Source: an uncultured Subdoligranulum sp. (GTDB taxonomy: Bacteria > Bacillota > Clostridia > Oscillospirales > Ruminococcaceae). Taken from it: DNA of 35,972 nucleotides. Every line of letters starts with the position of its first letter. The first letter of the stretch is position 1. Below, piece by piece: positions 6,272 to 35,740 of the stretch. Made by a program: the position numbers and the translations under genes. The notes below the pieces were generated by a model that did no database searches, was not told the origin of the DNA, and saw nothing but the letters and a program-made list of their open reading frames with translations. The stretch is from NCBI GenBank assembly GCA_904390925.1, contig CAJFMB010000092.1:1-35972 (forward strand), in the 5' to 3' direction.

Positions 6272-7165
6272 ATGAATAATGAGTTGTTCAATGTCATCAG
6301 CAATTTCCGTTCCTTTGACTGGACGCGAGACCTGCTGGATGTTATTATCATCACCATCGCGTTCTATGAGCTGATTCTGTTTGCACGCAAATCCCGCGCC
6401 GGGCAGCTTGTCAAGGGTTTGATGCTGCTGCTTGCCTTCTACGCGCTGGCTTATTATTTCCGGCTTCGGACGGTCCGCTGGGTGCTTAGCAATGTGATGC
6501 AGATCGGCTTTATTGCTGCAGTGGTATTGTTCCAGCCGGAACTGCGCCGTACGCTGGAACGCCTGGGACAAAGTACCAGTTGGGCAAGCAAGATCTTTTT
6601 TACCCGGAAAATGGAACCGACCCTGCGCAGCCAATGGCAAAGTGCCATTGTTGCAATCTGCGATGCGGCGGAGCAGCTTTCCGATACGCGTACCGGCGCA
6701 CTGATGGTACTGGAACGGAAGAATAATCTGGAAGAGATCATTCATACAGGAACCCAGTTTCATGCCAACGTGATACCGGAAGTGCTGGGAACCATCTTTT
6801 ATGAAGGAACGCCGCTGCACGATGGCGCGGTTGTGATTCGTGATGGCCAGATTGTGGCGGCAGGTTGTGTGCTGCCTCTTTCCAACAACCTGGAAATGGG
6901 CAAGGATATGGGAACCCGCCATCGTGCCGGCCTGGGCATGAGTGAAAATTCTGATGCCATTGTAGTAGTGGTCAGTGAGGAAACCGGTATTATTTCGCTG
7001 GCCAAAAATGGCGTTCTGATCCGACGCCTTGACCGCCAGAACCTGTTCAGCCTGCTTCAGGAGGAAATCATTCCACCTGAAACCGGGCAGGACAAGGATG
7101 CCGGCATCCTCAAACAGCTGTTTGGCAAAGGGGGAAACTCTGCCGATGATCCGCAAAAAAAGTAA
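6272..7165 (+). CDS. cdaA: CdaA diadenylate cyclase
   Basis: CdaA condenses two ATP to cyclic di-AMP, the essential messenger that controls potassium and osmolyte homeostasis. The 297-residue membrane protein has three N-terminal transmembrane segments (about 20-38, 46-63, 73-89) and a DAC domain (about 100-260). The catalytic motifs are DGA (184-186, in PLHDGAVVIRDG) and RHR (216-218, in MGTRHRAGLG). The ATG at 6272 was chosen because GAGGAGG lies about 9 nt upstream. It overlaps the next gene, cdaR, by 20 nt, the usual coupling of cyclase and regulator. The third gene of the common Firmicute operon, glmM, is not adjacent here. Confidence 0.96.
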   Translation: MNNELFNVISNFRSFDWTRDLLDVIIITIAFYELILFARKSRAGQLVKGLMLLLAFYALAYYFRLRTVRWVLSNVMQIGFIAAVVLFQPELRRTLERLGQSTSWASKIFFTRKMEPTLRSQWQSAIVAICDAAEQLSDTRTGALMVLERKNNLEEIIHTGTQFHANVIPEVLGTIFYEGTPLHDGAVVIRDGQIVAAGCVLPLSNNLEMGKDMGTRHRAGLGMSENSDAIVVVVSEETGIISLAKNGVLIRRLDRQNLFSLLQEEIIPPETGQDKDAGILKQLFGKGGNSADDPQKK

Positions 7166-27424: not shown

Positions 27425-28276
27425 ATGAAACGTATGCTCAGTTTTGGTCTGGTGGCTGCATTGGCTCTCAGCCTGGTTGCCTGTGGCAGTCCTGCCAGTG
27501 AGTCCGGTTCGGAGGCTGGCACCACGGATTCCACTGCCGGCACTGCTGATACGGCTGATGTGGAAGAAACCGAAAGTGATCTGGCCTATGTCAAAGATAA
27601 GGGAAGCCTGGTCATTGGCTACACGGTCTATGCACCGATGAACTATACCGATGAGGATGGCAACTTTACCGGCTTTGACACTGAACTGGCAACCGCTGTC
27701 TGCGAGAAGCTGGGCGTGGAGCCGGAATTTGTCGAGATCAACTGGGACACCAAGATTGTTGAACTGGATGCCAAGAGCATTGATTGCATCTGGAACGGCA
27801 TGACGCTGACCGATGATATCATGGCCAATACCGCCTGCACGGAACCCTATGCCAAGAATGCTCAGGTTGTCGTCATGAAGAAGGATGCAGCGTACACCAG
27901 CACGGCTGATCTGGCTGGTGCCGTTGTCACTGCCGAGGCAGGATCTGCCGGTGAGACTACTGTTCAGGAAGATGAAAATCTGTCCCAGGCGGACTATGTC
28001 TCCAAGACGGTGCAGACCGATTGCCTGATGGAAGTTGAGGCCGGCACGGCGGATGCCGCTGTGCTGGATCTGACGCTGGCTAATGCCATGATCGGCGACG
28101 GCACCGACTATGCCGATCTGGAGATCAAGGATGAGCTGAATGTGGAAGAGTACGGTGTTGCTTTCCGCAAGGGCAGCGATATTGCTGCAGCTGTGAATGA
28201 TGCTTTTGCCGCACTGCGTGAAGATGGCACCATGCAGGCGCTGGCAGACAAGTACAATCTGGAACTGGCTGATTGA
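27425..28276 (+). CDS. Polar amino-acid ABC transporter, binding lipoprotein
   Basis: This is an extracellular solute receptor of family 3 (SBP_bac_3), 283 residues. A lipoprotein signal peptide ends with LSLVAC (Cys20). A Ser/Thr/Gly-rich linker follows to about residue 45, then the binding domain with LVIGYTVYAPMNYTDEDG, FTGFDTELATAVCEKLG and AVLDLTLANAMI. The exact amino acid cannot be read from the sequence. The ribosome binding site AGAGGAGGAG is strong. It is the first gene of a receptor-permease-ATPase operon and is followed by a hairpin that would favour higher receptor expression. Confidence 0.93.
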   Translation: MKRMLSFGLVAALALSLVACGSPASESGSEAGTTDSTAGTADTADVEETESDLAYVKDKGSLVIGYTVYAPMNYTDEDGNFTGFDTELATAVCEKLGVEPEFVEINWDTKIVELDAKSIDCIWNGMTLTDDIMANTACTEPYAKNAQVVVMKKDAAYTSTADLAGAVVTAEAGSAGETTVQEDENLSQADYVSKTVQTDCLMEVEAGTADAAVLDLTLANAMIGDGTDYADLEIKDELNVEEYGVAFRKGSDIAAAVNDAFAALREDGTMQALADKYNLELAD

Positions 28277-28296
28277 TCAATAAAAGTCTGAAGTTT

Positions 28297-28337
28297 GGCA
28301 GACCCGCGAGCCTTGAAGGACAGGCACGCGGGCTGCC
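28297..28337 (+). terminator. Hairpin between receptor and permease
   Basis: GGCAGACCCGCG (28297-28308) pairs with CGCGGGCTGCC (28327-28337) with one irregularity and an 18-nt loop. No long T-run follows. This is probably an mRNA-stabilising or attenuating stem that raises receptor mRNA relative to the downstream transporter genes. Confidence 0.55.
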
Positions 28338-28390
28338 TTATGTCGGAACAAAACCAAATGCCGGACAATCGGCGGGGAAGTGGGAAAATC

Positions 28391-29050
28391 ATGAGTGAAG
28401 CCTTGGTGATATGGGAGCGCCTGTCAGGAAGCTTCCTTTTGAATGTTGAGCTCTTTGCACTGACGCTGGTCTTTGCACTGCCGTTGGGACTGCTGGTGGC
28501 ATTTGGTTCTATGAGTCGGTTTGCACCGCTTCGTGGTGTGGTGCGTACTTTTGTCTGGGTGATTCGCGGCACCCCCCTGATGCTGCAGATCATTGTGATC
28601 TATCTTGGCCCTGGCCTGATGGATTGGGGAAATCCCTGGCCTTCCGGCAGTGGCGGACGCCTTACCGCATCGGTGGTTGCTTTCGTCATTAACTACGCCT
28701 GCTATTTTTCTGAAATTTACCGTGGCGGTATTGAGAGCGTTCCCCGTGGTCAGACGGAAGCGGGACAGGTTCTTGGTATGACAAAATCGCAGATCTTTTT
28801 CAAGGTTACGCTTTTGCAGGTTATCAAGAGAATCCTGCCACCTATGGGAAATGAAGTCATCACCCTGGTAAAGGATACCTCGCTGGCCAACATCATCTCC
28901 TGCAAGGAGATTATCATGATGGCAAAGGAGTACAGCGCCAAGGGCTTGATCTGGCCACTGTTCTCCACCGCTATCTTCTTCCTGATTTTTGTGGGCGTGC
29001 TGACCATTCTCTTTGGCGCCCTGGAAAAGAAAATGGATTACTTCAAGTAA
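28391..29050 (+). CDS. Amino-acid ABC transporter permease
   Basis: This is the inner-membrane subunit of the HisM/GlnP type. It has about five transmembrane segments and the EAA loop ETEAGQVLGMTKSQIFFKVTL (about 119-139; here QTEAGQVLGM), which contacts the ATPase. The start region FLLNVELFALTLVFALPLGLL and WVIRGTPLMLQIIV are family hallmarks. The ATG at 28391 (219 aa) is preferred because 28340 lies right against the hairpin; GGGGAAGTGGGA precedes 28391. It sits between the receptor and ATPase genes. Confidence 0.9.
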   Translation: MSEALVIWERLSGSFLLNVELFALTLVFALPLGLLVAFGSMSRFAPLRGVVRTFVWVIRGTPLMLQIIVIYLGPGLMDWGNPWPSGSGGRLTASVVAFVINYACYFSEIYRGGIESVPRGQTEAGQVLGMTKSQIFFKVTLLQVIKRILPPMGNEVITLVKDTSLANIISCKEIIMMAKEYSAKGLIWPLFSTAIFFLIFVGVLTILFGALEKKMDYFK

Positions 29051-29063
29051 GGGGGAAACTGCC

Positions 29064-29846
29064 ATGGCATTGTTGGAAGCAACCGGTATCAGCAAACGGT
29101 TTGGCAGCACCCGCGTGCTGGAAAACATCTCGCTTTCGCTGGAAAAAGGAGAGGCACTTGCCATTATCGGCTCCTCCGGGTCTGGAAAAACGACGCTGCT
29201 GCGCTGCCTGAATTTCCTGGAAACGCCTGATACCGGTCGAATTGTGGTGGATGGTGAAACCTTGTGGGATGCTGAGGACCCGGCAACGCATAAGGAAAGT
29301 GAAAAACGCAAGAAACGTCTGCATTTCGGTCTGGTATTTCAGAATTTTAATCTGTTTCCCCAGTATACAGCTTTGCAAAACATCATGCTGGCGGGGGAAC
29401 TTTTGTCCAAGGAACGTCCGGACTATAAGGCAAACCGCAAACAGATTCATGCAGATCTGGAAGCCCAGGCGCGCCGTCTTTTGGACCAGATGGGATTGAG
29501 TGACCGGGCAGACCATTATCCGCATCAGCTGTCCGGCGGTCAGCAGCAGCGTGTGGCGATTGCCCGTGCGTTGGCTCTGGAACCTGACATTCTCTGCTTC
29601 GACGAGCCGACCTCTGCCCTGGACCCGGAACTTACCGGCGAAGTGTTGCGCGTGTTGCGGGACCTTGCGGCGCATAAAACGACAATGATCATTGTGACAC
29701 ATGAGATGACGTTTGCCCGCGATGTGGCGGATCGGATCCTATTTATGGACAGAGGTGTTGTTGTGGAGGAAGGTCCTGCACACCAGGTGATTGAGCACCC
29801 GCAGGAAGAGCGTACCCGCCAATTCCTGGCCAATTATAATACCTGA
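29064..29846 (+). CDS. Amino-acid ABC transporter ATP-binding protein
   Basis: This 260-residue ATPase of the GlnQ/HisP type powers the transporter. It shows Walker A GSSGSGKTT (about 37-45), a Q-loop at VFQNFNLFPQ, the signature LSGGQQQR, Walker B ILCFDEPTSALDPE and the switch His in VTHE. All catalytic residues are intact. A longer than usual insertion rich in Lys/Asp sits between the Q-loop and signature. GGGGGA precedes the ATG. It ends about 85 nt before a strong terminator. Confidence 0.95.
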   Translation: MALLEATGISKRFGSTRVLENISLSLEKGEALAIIGSSGSGKTTLLRCLNFLETPDTGRIVVDGETLWDAEDPATHKESEKRKKRLHFGLVFQNFNLFPQYTALQNIMLAGELLSKERPDYKANRKQIHADLEAQARRLLDQMGLSDRADHYPHQLSGGQQQRVAIARALALEPDILCFDEPTSALDPELTGEVLRVLRDLAAHKTTMIIVTHEMTFARDVADRILFMDRGVVVEEGPAHQVIEHPQEERTRQFLANYNT

Positions 29847-30012: not shown

Positions 30013-30438
30013 TTACTTCTTTACTGAAATTTCCTGATCACAGTACAGGCAGCGGTATTTCCCGGAAGGGGACAATTTGAAAATATGTTCGCAGTTGTCT
30101 TCTATGCTGGTAATGCAGCGCGGATTGGTGCATTTTACCACATTCCGGAGGAGCTTGGGGGTCTCCGGGCGAAACTTCTTTTCAATTTTTCCGTTGCGGA
30201 TGTAAATCAGTGTGATTTTACTGTCAAGATATCCGAGAATCTCCAACCGGGCGGGCAGTTCCGTCCCTTCTATCTTGATCAGGTCTTTGTGACCGTATTT
30301 TTTGCTGCGGACAGACTGCAGCAGTGCCACCGGTTGTTCATGATTTTCCAGGTGCAGAAGACGGTAAATCTCCATCCCGCGCCCCGCGGTGATATGGTCG
30401 ATTACAACCCCGTTCTGGATGGATTCCACATTCAGCAT
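30013..30438 (-). CDS. pyrI: Aspartate carbamoyltransferase regulatory subunit
   Basis: PyrI binds allosteric nucleotides (CTP/UTP inhibit, ATP activates in E. coli) and bridges PyrB trimers. The 141-residue product has the N-terminal allosteric domain (with [13 protein letters not shown]). The zinc domain has Cys103, Cys108, Cys130 and Cys133 (KCTNPRC and CLYC), the four ligands needed to contact PyrB. Its ATG overlaps the pyrB stop as ATGCTGA. It is the last gene of the argG-purA-pyrB-pyrI operon. Confidence 0.96.
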
Positions 30439-31379
30439 GTCAGCACCTTCTCTCCGGTTACTGGGTCAGCAAGCCCCAACAAAGTCATAATCAGCGCCAT
30501 GCGGATATACAAACCATTCTGGACCTGGGTAAAATAGGCTGCCCGGGGGTCCTGATCGATTTCCATGGCTATCTCATCCACCCGGGGCAGCGGATGCAAT
30601 ACCGGTGTATCCGGTTGAAGCAGTTTCATCTTCTCCGCATCCAGAGTGTAAATGCCTTTCAGCCGGAGATAGTCTTCCTCATTGAAGAAGCGCTCCTTCT
30701 GTACGCGGGTCATATAAAGAACATCCAGTTTGGGAAGGTTCTCTTCCAGATTGGTGACTTCCTCAAAGGTGGCACTAGATGGTACCAACGTATCTTCTAT
30801 CACATATCCGGGAACACGCAATTCCTCCGGAGAAATAAAGCAGAAATGATTGCCAGGATACCGCACAAGCCGGTTGACCAGCGAGTGCACTGTCCGCCCG
30901 AATTTCAGATCTCCGCAAAACCCTACCGTCAGATGGTCCAGGCGCCCCTTTCGCTGCCGGATGGTCATCAGGTCAATCAGCGTCTGGGAGGGATGATTAT
31001 GTCCTCCGTCACCGGCATTGATCACCGGGATGGCGGCATACCGGGAGGCCAGCAGCGGAGCGCCTTCCTTGGGATGACGCATAGCAATGATGTCCGCATA
31101 ACAGCTGACGACCCGTGCCGTGTCGGCAACGGTTTCGCCTTTTGTGGCGCTGGATTGCTCTGCTCCGGAAAAGCCCAGTGTCCTGCCGCCGAGGTGCAAC
31201 GTTGCGGATTCAAACGAAAGCCGGGTTCTGGTGCTTGGCTCATAAAACAGTGTGGCCAAAACCTTACCGTCGGCCACATGGGCGTATGCACTGGGGTTGA
31301 CCGAAATCCGGTCGGCCAGATTCAAGACTGCCAGAGTTTCCGCATCACTGAAATCTGCAGGTTCGATCAAGTGCCTCAT
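30432..31379 (-). CDS. pyrB: Aspartate carbamoyltransferase catalytic subunit
   Basis: PyrB joins carbamoyl phosphate and L-aspartate in the first committed step of pyrimidine synthesis. The 315-residue product has the carbamoyl-phosphate motif STRTR (49-53) and the aspartate-side motifs [12 protein letters not shown] and HPLPRVDEI. The ATG at 31379 was chosen because AAAGGAG lies 7 nt upstream; the TTG at 31385 is too close to it. The ATG overlaps the purA stop as ATGA. With PyrI it should form an allosteric E. coli-type holoenzyme. Other pyr genes are not next to it. Confidence 0.97.
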
Positions 31380-32677
31380 TCCCAAGCTCCTTTCGTCAGA
31401 AATGCGTCGCGCGTGGCACCGACAGAGATAAACTGAATCTCATGATCCAGCATGGCTTCCAGCGTGGTAATGTAAACTTTAGCTGTCTGCGGCAGAGCTT
31501 CCCAGGTGCGGCAAGCCGATATGTCTTCCTGCCAGCCTGCCAGGTACTGCACCACCGGTGTGCAGGCATCCAGGTTGATGGTGGGATCAAACCTGTCGAT
31601 TCGGCGCCCGTTGCTTTCGTAGGCTGTAATGACCGGAATCCGTTTCATACCGGTCAGTACGTTCAGCTTGGTCAGTGCAATTTTGTCAGCATTCTGGCAT
31701 CTCAGGCCGTACCGGCTGGCAACTGCGTCAAAGGGACCCACACGGCGCGGCCGCCCGGTTGCGGCCCCGTACTCACCACCGGCCTGGCGCAGTGCATTGG
31801 TCCAATCTTTCGGCATGGCACGCTCTGCGACGAAAGGACCTGCACCGACACAGGTCGAATAAGCTTTCAATACACCGACCACATGGTCCAGACGCCATCC
31901 GGGAATTCCGGCACCGATAGGACCATAGGCGGAGATGGTGGAGGAACTGGATGTGTAGGGAAAAATGCCGTAATCGATATCGCGCATGGCACCCAGCTGC
32001 GCTTCCAGAACCACACGTTTGCCCTCCTTCAGCGCCTGGTCCAGATAGTTTCCGGTGTCGCAAATATAAACGCCGAAATCTGCGGCCTTTGCCTTGCACC
32101 AGGCCATGAGGGCAGGGTAGGACATGGGTTCCTGGTGATAGCACCCGCCCAACTCAAGGTTTTTTGCCTCCAGCATGGTTTGCAGGCGTGCCTGTACGGA
32201 GGATTCGTTCAGGTGAAGCAGATCACCCAACCGCAGTGTCTTTTTGCGGTATTTGTCGCTGTAAGCATAGGCGATCCCTCGGCGGGTCGAACCAAATGCT
32301 GCACCGCTCTTGGACAGACGGTCCTCCTCCAGCTCGTCTTGGATTCGATGCCAGGGCATCGAGATGGTCGCCCGGGTGGAGAGCTTCAGATGCTCCGGGG
32401 TGACGGGGACACCCTTTTCCCGGATGTCATGAATTTCCCCGGACAGGTGGTCCAGATCCACAACCATGCCATCCCCCAGAACACAGGTGACATTCGGGTG
32501 CAGGATGCCGGAAGGCAGCAGGTTCAAAACAAACTTTCCCTGATCGGTCACAACCGTATGACCTGCATTGTTGCCGCCCTGATAGCGCACCACGATGTCG
32601 GCGTTTTCCGCCAGCAGATCGATCACACGACCCTTGCCCTCGTCGCCCCAGTTGATTCCCGTTACCGCGGTCAGCAT
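31376..32677 (-). CDS. purA: Adenylosuccinate synthetase
   Basis: PurA condenses IMP and L-aspartate using GTP, the first step from IMP to AMP. The 433-residue protein has the P-loop [10 protein letters not shown] (7-16, with catalytic D12), [13 protein letters not shown] with catalytic H40, [19 protein letters not shown] and [10 protein letters not shown]. It belongs to a divergent clostridial subtype: the usual GAQWGDEGKG, EGAQG and RRGIGPAY blocks read [15 protein letters not shown] and RRGIAYAY. The Asp excludes the phage PurZ type. GGAGG precedes the ATG by 7 nt. It overlaps argG (ATGCTGA) and pyrB (ATGA). Confidence 0.95.
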
Positions 32678-33903
32678 TCTTTTTCCTCCCCGTTTTTCTG
32701 AGCAACAGCGGCCTGGACCCGTGTGGGCAGGCCGTACAGTTTGATGAAGCCGGTGGCGTCGGACTGCTGATAGCTGCCGCCGGCATCAAAGGTGGCGATC
32801 TCCTCGCTGTACAGCGAATACGGCGACCACACGCCCGCGTTGATGATATTGCCTTTGTACAGCTTCAGGCGCACCTTGCCGGTGACGGTCTGCTGGGTTT
32901 CCGTCACAAAGGCCGACAGTGCCTTGCGCAGCGGCGAGAACCACTGGCCATCATACACCAGCTCGCCGAAGGTGATAGCCAGTTCCCGCTTTTTGTGTGC
33001 AGTCTGCTTGTCCAGGGTGAGCGTTTCCAGAACCTCGTGTGCCCGATACAGGATCGTGCCGCCGGGGGTCTCGTAGACGCCGCGGGATTTCATGCCCACC
33101 AGACGGTTCTCCACCACATCATACAGACCGATACCGTTGCGGCCGCCCAGTTCGTTCAACCCTGCAATGATCCGGGCGGGCTTCATGGCTACACCATTGA
33201 GGGCAACGGGCACGCCTTTTTCAAAGGCCAGCTCCATATACTCCGGCGCATCCGGTGCCTTCAACGGAGAGACGCCCAGCTCCAGGAAGCCATCTTTTTC
33301 ATACTGCGGTTCATTGCCGGGGTCCTCCAGGTCTAGGCCTTCATGGCTGAGATGCCAAAGGTTCTTGTCTTTGGAATAGTTGGTCTCGCGGCTGATTTTC
33401 AGCGGGATGTGATGTGCCTCAGCGTAGTCGATCTCCTCGTCCCGGCTCTGGATATCCCATTCCCGCCAGGGAGTGATGATTGTCATTTCCGGATCAAAGT
33501 GCATGATGGCCAGCTCAAAGCGGACCTGGTCGTTGCCTTTTCCGGTGCTGCCATGGCAGACGGCATCGGCACCCTCGGCCTTGGCAATCTCCACAACCCG
33601 CTTGGCAAGAACCGGTCGGGCAAAGCTGGTTCCCAGCAGATATCCTTCATAGTCGGCGCCTGCCTGCATGGTGGGGATCACGTACTCGTCCACGAACTCG
33701 TCGGTCAGGTCCTCCACATACAGCTTACTGGCGCCGGATGCTTTTGCCCGCTGCTCCAGATCATCCAACTCACCGGTCTGGCCGATATTGCCGCATACGG
33801 CAATGACCTCGCAGTTGTTGTAATGCTCCTTCAGCCAAGGAATGATAATGGAAGTGTCCAACCATCCGGAATAGGCAAGCACTACTTTTTTGATCTCTTT
33901 CAT
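32671..33903 (-). CDS. argG: Argininosuccinate synthase
   Basis: ArgG condenses citrulline and L-aspartate with ATP, the penultimate step of arginine synthesis. The 410-residue product is collinear with the family throughout ([36 protein letters not shown]). The ATP PP-loop is unusual: AYSGGLDTS reads AYSGWLDTS, with Trp14 in place of an otherwise near-invariant Gly. The ATG at 33903 fits the family start; a GTG at 33915 is an alternative, and neither has a strong ribosome binding site. It is the first gene of the operon. The other arginine genes (argH and so on) are not nearby. Confidence 0.94.
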
Positions 33904-33944
33904 AGAACAACGCACCCATTTTCTTGTATTTGGAACTGAAATTT

Positions 33945-33973
33945 AGTATACTGATTCTGTTGAAATATGTAAA
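33945..33973 (-). promoter_or_regulatory. Promoter of argG-purA-pyrB-pyrI operon
   Basis: On the minus strand TTTACA (33968-33973) and TATACT (33945-33950) are exactly 17 bp apart, each one mismatch from consensus. The predicted start is near 33938, leaving a leader of about 35 nt without an obvious attenuator or PyrR-type structure. Confidence 0.7.
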
Positions 33974-33975
33974 AG

Positions 33976-33993
33976 CTATTATTGATATAATAG
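33976..33993. promoter_or_regulatory. Dyad between argG and lysR promoters
   Basis: A perfect dyad CTATTAT-TGAT-ATAATAG (33976-33993) lies between the argG -35 hexamer and the lysR gene. It includes the T-N11-A form typical of LysR-regulator binding sites. It also contains a TATAAT (33986-33991) that may be the lysR -10. It is the best candidate operator for the adjacent LysR protein on both promoters. Confidence 0.55.
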
Positions 33994-34025: not shown

Positions 34026-34928
34026 ATGAATGTGAATTTTGAATACTACAAAATCTTTTACTATGTTGCCAAGTACAAAAACTTTACAAAAGCGGCAAAT
34101 GCACTGGGAAACAGTCAGCCGAATGTGACACGCACCATGAACTGCCTGGAACAGGAGCTCCACTGCAAACTGTTTATCCGTACCAACCGCGGGGTGCAGC
34201 TGACCCCGGAAGGAGAACAGTTGTACAGCCATGTGGCCGCTGCGATGACCCAGTTGCAGACCGCCGAATCGGAACTGGCAGCCAGTTCCGGCCTGGAACA
34301 CGGCAGTGTTTCGATTGGAGCCACAGAGACGGCTCTGAACATTTTTCTGCTGGAAAAGTTGAAGCCATTTCATATCCACTATCCGGGAATCCGATTAAAA
34401 ATCTACAACCATTCCACGCCGCAGGCCATTCGCTCTGTCAGGAATGGAGAGATTGATTTTGCTGTTGTCACTACCCCGACGCAGGTTGAACCACCCCTGA
34501 AGGAGGTGCGACTTAAAACTTTTCGGGAAATTCTTGTGGGGGGCCGGACTTTCACGGCCTTGGGCAGTCAGAACCTTAGTCTGGCCGAAGTGCAGAAGTA
34601 TCCTTTCATCTGCTTGGGCAAGGAGACGATGACTTATCAGTTTTATCACCAGTTTTTTCTGGAACATGGGCTGGAACTGCAGCCGGATACCGAGGCTGCA
34701 ACCACGGACCAGATCCTTCCGTTGGTCATGTGTGAACTGGGGCTGGCATTTTTGCCCGAGCCGATGGCGGTGGAGGCGATCCGGAACCGTCAGATCATCC
34801 AGATCCAGCTGCGGGAAGAAATTCCAGAACGGCAGATCTGTATGGTCTATGACCGGCAGCGCCCCATCGGTACGGCAGCCCAAACGCTGAGAAGGATCAT
34901 TACCGGCGAGGCAACCCTTCCTGTCTAG
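34026..34928 (+). CDS. LysR-family transcriptional regulator
   Basis: The 300-residue product has a winged helix-turn-helix (1-60, with FTKAANALGNSQPNVTRTM) and a periplasmic-binding-like effector domain (about 90-295, with GSVSIGATETALNIFLLEKL and LPLVMCELGLAFLPE). It is divergent from argG with 122 bp between start codons, the standard position for a LysR protein controlling its neighbour. The effector is unknown; aspartate or an arginine/nucleotide intermediate are guesses from context. AGGA precedes the ATG by 8 nt. Confidence 0.9.
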   Translation: MNVNFEYYKIFYYVAKYKNFTKAANALGNSQPNVTRTMNCLEQELHCKLFIRTNRGVQLTPEGEQLYSHVAAAMTQLQTAESELAASSGLEHGSVSIGATETALNIFLLEKLKPFHIHYPGIRLKIYNHSTPQAIRSVRNGEIDFAVVTTPTQVEPPLKEVRLKTFREILVGGRTFTALGSQNLSLAEVQKYPFICLGKETMTYQFYHQFFLEHGLELQPDTEAATTDQILPLVMCELGLAFLPEPMAVEAIRNRQIIQIQLREEIPERQICMVYDRQRPIGTAAQTLRRIITGEATLPV

Positions 34929-35010: not shown

Positions 35011-35051
35011 GATTGAAATGGTGAACAAAATGAGAAAGGGTGGATTTGTAT

Positions 35052-35740
35052 ATGGTGCCCCAGAGATTACAGGAAGATTTGTACATGATGGACGATGGGC
35101 GGGTGAGGCAGTTCCTTATACTTGGCCGCAATACGGCTCTTCTGTTGGATACTGGTTTTACCGATAGTGATGTGCTGGCAGCAGTACGCACGATTACGGA
35201 TGCACCGCTGCAGGTATTGTTGACCCACGGGGACCTGGACCACGCGGGGGGGTGGGCAATTTTGAAGAGGCATGGCTGCACGAGAAGGATTGGAACCTGG
35301 TGCATGCTTCCACCAGGCTGCATCCGCTGCGGGAGGGGGACACGTTTTGCTGCGGGGACTGGAAACTTCAGGTCATCGAGATCCCGGGGCACACATATGG
35401 CAGTGTTGCTTTTGCAGATTTTGAGAAAAAGGTACTGTTTTCCGGCGATTCTGTGCAAAAGGGTGGACCAATTTACCTCTTCGGCAGTCACCGCAACCTG
35501 AACCTGTATATCCAAAGCCAGCGTAAACTGGAGGCCATGGCCTGCCGGTTTGAAACGATTTATCCCTGCCATCATTTCTGCCCGGTAACGCCGGATTACA
35601 TCGGCAAAAATCGGCAGGATGCCGAGGCATTGCAGGCGGGAATTTTGCCCAATGAACTTACCCCCGGCATGCCTTGTCGGACCTATCACGGCCGTTGGAC
35701 CGACTTCTACTGCACAGAGGAAGACCGCGTCCGTCTCTGA
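35052..35740 (+). pseudogene. MBL-fold hydrolase with G7-tract frameshift
   Basis: The N-terminal part (from the ATG at 35052, AAAGGGTGG upstream) runs in one frame to THGDLDHAGG at about 35246. The rest continues in the -1 frame from about 35252 to 35740: EIPGHTYGSVAF, LFSGDSVQ and the YPCHHFCPV metal-ligand blocks. The break coincides with a run of seven G at 35246-35252. Adding one G, or a -1 ribosomal slip on GGGGGGG, restores a continuous frame of about 230 residues. The metal motif reads HGDLDH, with Asp where HxHxDH has the second His, a variant known in some MBL groups. It could be a pseudogene, a homopolymer sequencing error, a phase-variable gene or programmed frameshifting. Confidence 0.8.

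Follow-up and report, generated by a model that had tools for sequence, protein, structure and literature searches.

A recurrent operon of extra aspartate-consuming enzymes beside a divergent LysR-type gene in an uncultured Subdoligranulum sp.

We analyzed a stretch of 35,972 nucleotides (here, the window) from the draft genome of an uncultured Subdoligranulum sp. This genome (G000) totals 2.14 Mb in 100 contigs and is 85% complete. Near one end of the window, four genes that encode enzymes or enzyme subunits from arginine, AMP, and pyrimidine synthesis lie on one strand beside a regulator gene on the other strand. The features of this locus are as follows:

34026..34928, plus strand: LysR-type regulator gene (Pfam domains HTH_1 and LysR_substrate), divergent from the operon
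33976..33993, no strand assigned: perfect inverted repeat CTATTAT-N4-ATAATAG, found by eye, 2 bases upstream of the -35 element
33945..33973, minus strand: sigma-70-type promoter TTTACA-17-TATACT (10/12 matches), serving the operon
33903-32671, minus strand: argG, with an ATG start; an alternative upstream GTG at 33915 is possible
32677-31376, minus strand: purA, identified by profile and Pfam searches
31379-30432, minus strand: pyrB, aspartate carbamoyltransferase catalytic chain of the extra type, identified by profile search
30438-30013, minus strand: pyrI, aspartate carbamoyltransferase regulatory chain, identified by Pfam domains

The gene order argG-purA-pyrB-pyrI, the shared strand, and the overlapping stop and start codons are as first noted, and profile searches agree on the identities of the genes. 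The argG/purA, purA/pyrB, and pyrB/pyrI junctions read ATGCTGA, ATGA, and ATGCTGA, giving overlaps of 7, 4, and 7 bases. The divergent LysR gene that had been described beside the operon is also present, with LysR Pfam domains. A scan of the operon strand detected no promoter-like sites within argG-purA-pyrB-pyrI and a single weak terminator-like site (31451-31432, at the end of purA); in the region, two terminator-like sites were found, compared with a mean of 4.7 in shuffled sequences. Farther along the window (35040-35740), a metallo-beta-lactamase-fold-like gene looks, by eye, as if it were broken between two reading frames close to a G run. This is a hint of sequence errors in this contig.

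Checking the gene order in related genomes, as the original prediction had proposed, showed that argG-purA-pyrB-pyrI recurs at two further loci (L097 and L099). Searching more broadly for window-type PurA (71% or more), we detected it in one of 40 relatives searched besides G000 (G005), in three of 396 family genomes (G000, G263, and G1127), in four loci among the best 80 of 593 relatives (L097, L098, L099, and L101), and in two megaplasmid records of Lachnospira eligens. With L. eligens counted once, at least eight loci besides the window carry window-type purA; these counts are lower bounds from sampled genomes and from the best 80 of 593, and some genomes may repeat others. An assembly join or chance is excluded as the origin of the arrangement: the 7/4/7 overlaps recur in L097, and the extra copies compared (those of G263, G1127, and L. 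eligens were left out) differ at dS 0.95 or more, often with saturation. Because G1127 is a one-contig genome and the Faecalibacterium hattorii and L. eligens (ATCC 27750) carriers are isolates, the arrangement is not a binning artifact. The LysR gene (E up to 1e-80) was detected in 3 of 35 genus genomes. In the 17-kb stretch that surrounds the LysR gene of G006, there was no purA, pyrB, pyrI, or argG match; this lone window-type LysR (L180, 7087-11283) has ParA- and ParB-like genes, by eye, on its operon side.

Across the loci, the genes that accompany the LysR type (here, the cargo) are as follows:

Window, L097, and L099: argG-purA-pyrB-pyrI
G005: purA-pyrB-pyrI-Cytidylate_kin2-MATE
F. hattorii L098: broken argG, then purA-pyrB
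G1127: purA-pyrB
G263: purA
L101: DUF4866-ThrE-purA
L. eligens megaplasmid: DUF4866-ThrE-purA-pyrB
Roseburia sp. 831b plasmid: DUF4866-ThrE only

L097 is a 3.5-kb contig that ends inside argG and pyrI and shows no LysR gene, and its organism label may be wrong. In L099, as in G005, pyrI is followed by a cytidylate-kinase-like gene and then by a MATE pump. An exporter is therefore part of four sister loci that carry purA (MATE in G005 and L099, ThrE in L101 and L. eligens), and the stretches from the window, F. hattorii, G263, and G1127 matched neither MATE nor ThrE. We rejected the MATE pump as a member of the window's unit, given that nothing in G000 matched it at E up to 1e-90. Overlapping genes are found at other loci as well: 4 and 7 bases in G005, 4 in L098, and 4 in L. 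eligens. L099 has overlaps of 7 and 7 bases, its purA-pyrB junction being outside the count owing to a frameshift in purA. The spread is patchy, and the cargo behind the promoter, exporters included, is exchanged between loci; we read the operon as accessory and horizontally spread. Among plasmid records, matches at 60 to 80% led from PurA to L. eligens and from LysR to L. eligens and Roseburia. A phage or plasmid origin was rejected: the window LysR had no match in viral contigs with the patterns used, and all 18 PurA matches in phage records were below 60%.

The window LysR is 75% identical to the LysR of G005 and of L099, 67% to that of L. eligens, 66% to that of L101, and 63% to those of F. 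hattorii L098, G263, and G1127. We compared nine intergenic regions beside this LysR type (window, L099, G005, L098, G1127, G263, L101, L. eligens, and Roseburia sp. 831b; L097 was left out). All nine contain the promoter TTTAC(A/T)-N17-TATA(A/C)T, whichever gene comes first, and in the alignment it lies 49 to 62 bases away from the start codon of the LysR gene. This pattern occurred in 0 to 3 of 2000 dinucleotide shuffles per locus, which indicates compositional rarity rather than independent prediction because the pattern was defined after viewing eight of the nine loci. Among other relatives of this LysR, 20 of 28 loci had exactly TTTACA-17-TATAAT as the best site chosen per locus, and so did four of the nine MATE loci; these are raw counts. 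The inverted repeat in the window is a possible LysR site; at the aligned position, other loci carry similar, less perfect repeat letters. LysR domains, a divergent layout, and a repeat and promoter in the common intergenic region are all found in the window, as in known systems in which a LysR-type regulator faces its target operon; we infer that LysR probably controls the operon. The locus differs from those systems in that its cargo is swapped from one genome to another and contains duplicates of housekeeping enzymes. The view that the genes form a single operon holds for the architecture, with the LysR-side promoter at every locus compared and the same overlaps in relatives, although the argG part is unstable.

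Second copies were evident in several carrier genomes. G000 has another purA on contig C7 and another argG on contig C23, which are 58% and 68% identical to the window genes; both resemble the genus copies and fall among them in trees. In addition to its window-type operon, G005 has a main purA, argG, and pyrB (followed by pyrI), so that in this genome it is purA and pyrBI that are present both in the operon and as housekeeping copies. Two purA genes each were detected in G1127 and G263, and F. hattorii APC922/41-1 carries L098 as well as L107. The genus is the one to which Gemmiger formicilis belongs; within it, G017 has a PurA identical to that of G. formicilis MCC627. Overall, purA and argG in G000 and purA and pyrBI in G005 are accessory duplicates of housekeeping genes, and a reading of the operon as the aspartate-dividing set of the cell is not supported. 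In G000 itself, we did not find a main pyrBI in the 85% of the genome that is represented; the window pyrB is the only close copy found and could be the sole pyrB. The gene adjoining the main pyrBI in G005 and G008 (85% identical to each other) has a best match of only 41% in G000. Since this neighbor is missing too, an assembly gap is likely, and loss of the main pyrBI from G000 is not supported.

Profile searches place the products of the operon in their expected families, with some scores below cut-off. The window PurA scored 425.9 bits against NF002223 (cut-off 402), with a full-length Pfam match (4-425 of 433), and 368 bits against TIGR00184, under the cut-off of 395.55. It has the motifs EAQLG and AATGR, whereas the 4m0g, 3hid, and 6bs7 sequences have EGAQG and TTTGR, ATTGR, or AVTGR. 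Given that the EAQLG and AATGR forms are present in all 13 main PurA copies aligned, they mark a clostridial PurA subfamily and are not a lesion; we therefore rejected a neofunctionalized PurA on the basis of these motifs. The window PyrB scored 327 bits against TIGR00670 (cut-off 237). Both PyrI domains, PF01948 (allosteric) and PF02748 (metal-binding), scored above their gathering scores, and PyrI was under both NCBIfam cut-offs (161 versus 171 and 113 versus 149). Through PyrI, the window retains control by the end product, and this is hard to square with an operon that serves purely as a sink for aspartate. As an adjacent and overlapping pair, pyrB and pyrI are like the ordinary pyrBI main copies of relatives (L234 and L235); here, they differ in having purA, argG, and the LysR-side promoter ahead of them.

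The window ArgG passed its family profile (NF001770, 569 bits, cut-off 334), but its ATP loop reads SGWLDTS rather than SGGLDTS, the ATP-loop motif of ArgG. Of 33 ArgG sequences listed, it alone has W at this Gly position, and the other 32 have SGG. The Gly-to-Trp change may inactivate the enzyme, or it may be an assembly error. At L098, a stop codon and a deletion break argG, indicating that argG was formerly present in F. hattorii, and the gene is absent at G005, L101, G263, G1127, and L. eligens. In the tree, the three rows of extra ArgG cluster with ArgG of other families, which, together with the losses, indicates that argG was separate in origin and has often been lost. Lost or damaged at most loci, argG is decaying. 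In the window it may be failing, in which case the working part would be purA-pyrB-pyrI. The operon as such is real and recurrent; it is argG that is doubtful in the window itself.

The Gly-to-Trp change in the window argG and the broken argG of F. hattorii, together with a frameshift near the 3' end of the L099 extra purA (about 7041-7158, in a metagenome-assembled genome), raises the question of whether the window holds a horizontally acquired remnant that is decaying and has no present function. We consider this quite improbable. In the window, purA, pyrB, pyrI, and lysR are open, the overlaps and the promoter are conserved, and dN/dS among the extra copies ranges from 0.045 to 0.189 where computable (that is, where silent sites are unsaturated). 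The extra copies are under purifying selection. The extra PurA form one clade in a quick tree (7 rows, SH-aLRT 100), and the extra PyrB likewise form one clade (5 rows, support 100/100); with G1127 and L. eligens left out, both clades adjoin the family's main copies with moderate support.

We also read the neighbors of this LysR clade at 40 loci (the window and G005 included), mostly with 1.5 kb on each side, and the counts are raw, such that related genomes are not independent events. A divergent aspartate aminotransferase (PF12897) is present in 3 of the 40 (L197, L208, and L216), and the one of these run against NCBIfam was assigned to type Ic. In another bacterium, the type member of aminotransferase Ic is reported to control how nitrogen is distributed by way of aspartate (PMC7181641). 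A LysR relative adjoins argG in L209 and pyrBI in L206 and L207; in the latter two loci it lies, by eye, between pyrBI and an atpB-like gene that is divergent from it. A divergent MATE pump of one subfamily is present in 9 of the 40 loci, with 65 to 83% identity to the G005 MATE, although one of the nine matches is partial, at a contig end. Other neighbors, assigned mostly by eye, include DUF1275, a small membrane protein, and lactate dehydrogenase-like and ATP synthase genes. The small membrane protein (104 to 122 residues, alike by eye) is divergent from the LysR relative in L187, L190, L198, L199, L204, and L217; the L198 protein matched no Pfam family.

Neighbors without a plain aspartate link count against an aspartate reading. 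They fit an unlikely alternative in which the operon is a nucleotide and arginine dosage unit, its LysR reading some cue of growth or nutrient state that has nothing to do with aspartate, the common substrate being incidental. The clade's LysR genes that face unrelated ATP synthase and lactate dehydrogenase-like genes speak for this alternative, as does the feedback control retained by PyrI. However, the enzymes present are those of aspartate steps, no further purine, pyrimidine, or arginine biosynthesis gene came to notice inside the unit where loci were read, and the aminotransferase, argG, and pyrBI genes beside LysR relatives also argue against it. As for the proposal that the operon apportions aspartate among pathways, these last neighbors support it, while it is weakened by the finding that the genes are extra copies beside housekeeping ones and are carried by few relatives.

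The explanation we lean toward, tentatively, is a mobile, LysR-switched aspartate-handling operon of extra aspartate-consuming enzymes (PurA, PyrB with PyrI, and at some loci ArgG). The divergent LysR-type regulator would switch the operon from a single fixed promoter and may respond to aspartate or a close metabolite. When this compound is abundant or out of balance, LysR would turn on the operon. The resulting channel would draw aspartate into the synthesis of AMP, pyrimidines, and arginine while escaping the transcriptional control that governs the main copies. At the sister loci, exporters would give the same relief.

The ThrE and MATE exporters at those loci suggest amino-acid overflow or relief from a toxic analogue as much as apportioning. 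The main rival, which we regard as somewhat unlikely, is an island that confers tolerance to some toxic analogue of aspartate: LysR would sense the compound, MATE or ThrE would export it, and extra PurA, aspartate carbamoyltransferase, and ArgG would restore flux. Alanosine, hadacidin, and PALA are known analogues that act on such enzymes. In keeping with tolerance, the target copies span three pathways with aspartate as their common substrate, exporters lie inside the unit at four loci, LysR relatives are repeatedly paired with the same MATE subfamily, and the spread is patchy, with one location on a megaplasmid. On the other side, four stretches, the window among them, gave no exporter match, and the extra PurA have conserved blocks in common with the main copies (by eye), so a resistant-type change is not evident. 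An exporter of amino acids can both relieve overflow and give resistance to an antimetabolite, as is reported for LysO with lysine and thialysine (PMC8498466). Sequence alone leaves the aspartate channel and analogue tolerance unseparated, and the exporters fit both; we favor the channel.

Two known kinds of system resemble the locus in part. LysG-LysE type systems are amino-acid overflow pairs. The DUF4866-ThrE loci in L. eligens and in Roseburia sp. 831b, with LysR beside an amino-acid exporter-like gene, are similar to them; here, enzymes that consume aspartate accompany the exporter or take its place. Self-resistance by target duplication likewise involves extra copies of essential enzymes and, as at some loci here, a pump. 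The present case differs in having three targets in three pathways, and we noticed no biosynthetic cluster nearby. A broader and speculative reading, which we think unlikely, is that a mobile cassette of LysR and a fixed promoter moves between gut Clostridia, on a megaplasmid among other routes, and collects cargo that would protect against excess aspartate or toxic analogues, through export (ThrE, MATE) and multiplied aspartate-binding enzymes from three pathways. If it were true, an unrecognized aspartate-type antimetabolite or aspartate stress would exist in the gut.

To our knowledge, it is unusual for enzymes of three pathways with a common substrate to be placed under one separate switch. 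Being a portable second set, the operon is of more interest than the first account suggested. Should it sense aspartate or a mimic, the unit would represent a built-in way of redistributing a central carrier of nitrogen, or it would mark gut competition by antimetabolites. Within the part of the open-access literature that our search reached (most subscription papers lie outside it), we found no description of this operon. The operon could be tested in two carrier isolates, F. hattorii APC922/41-1 and L. eligens ATCC 27750.

Three further observations concern the surroundings of these loci. In the window, genes for a polar amino-acid ABC transporter (binding protein, permease, and ATPase; 27425-29846, plus strand) run toward the 3' end of the operon. 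The G1127 operon also has a polar amino-acid ABC transporter nearby, but it is a different one (L268, 30 to 50% identical). The L. eligens megaplasmid unit LysR-DUF4866-ThrE-purA-pyrB (L274, NC_012780 168269-187564) lies near rhamnose genes.
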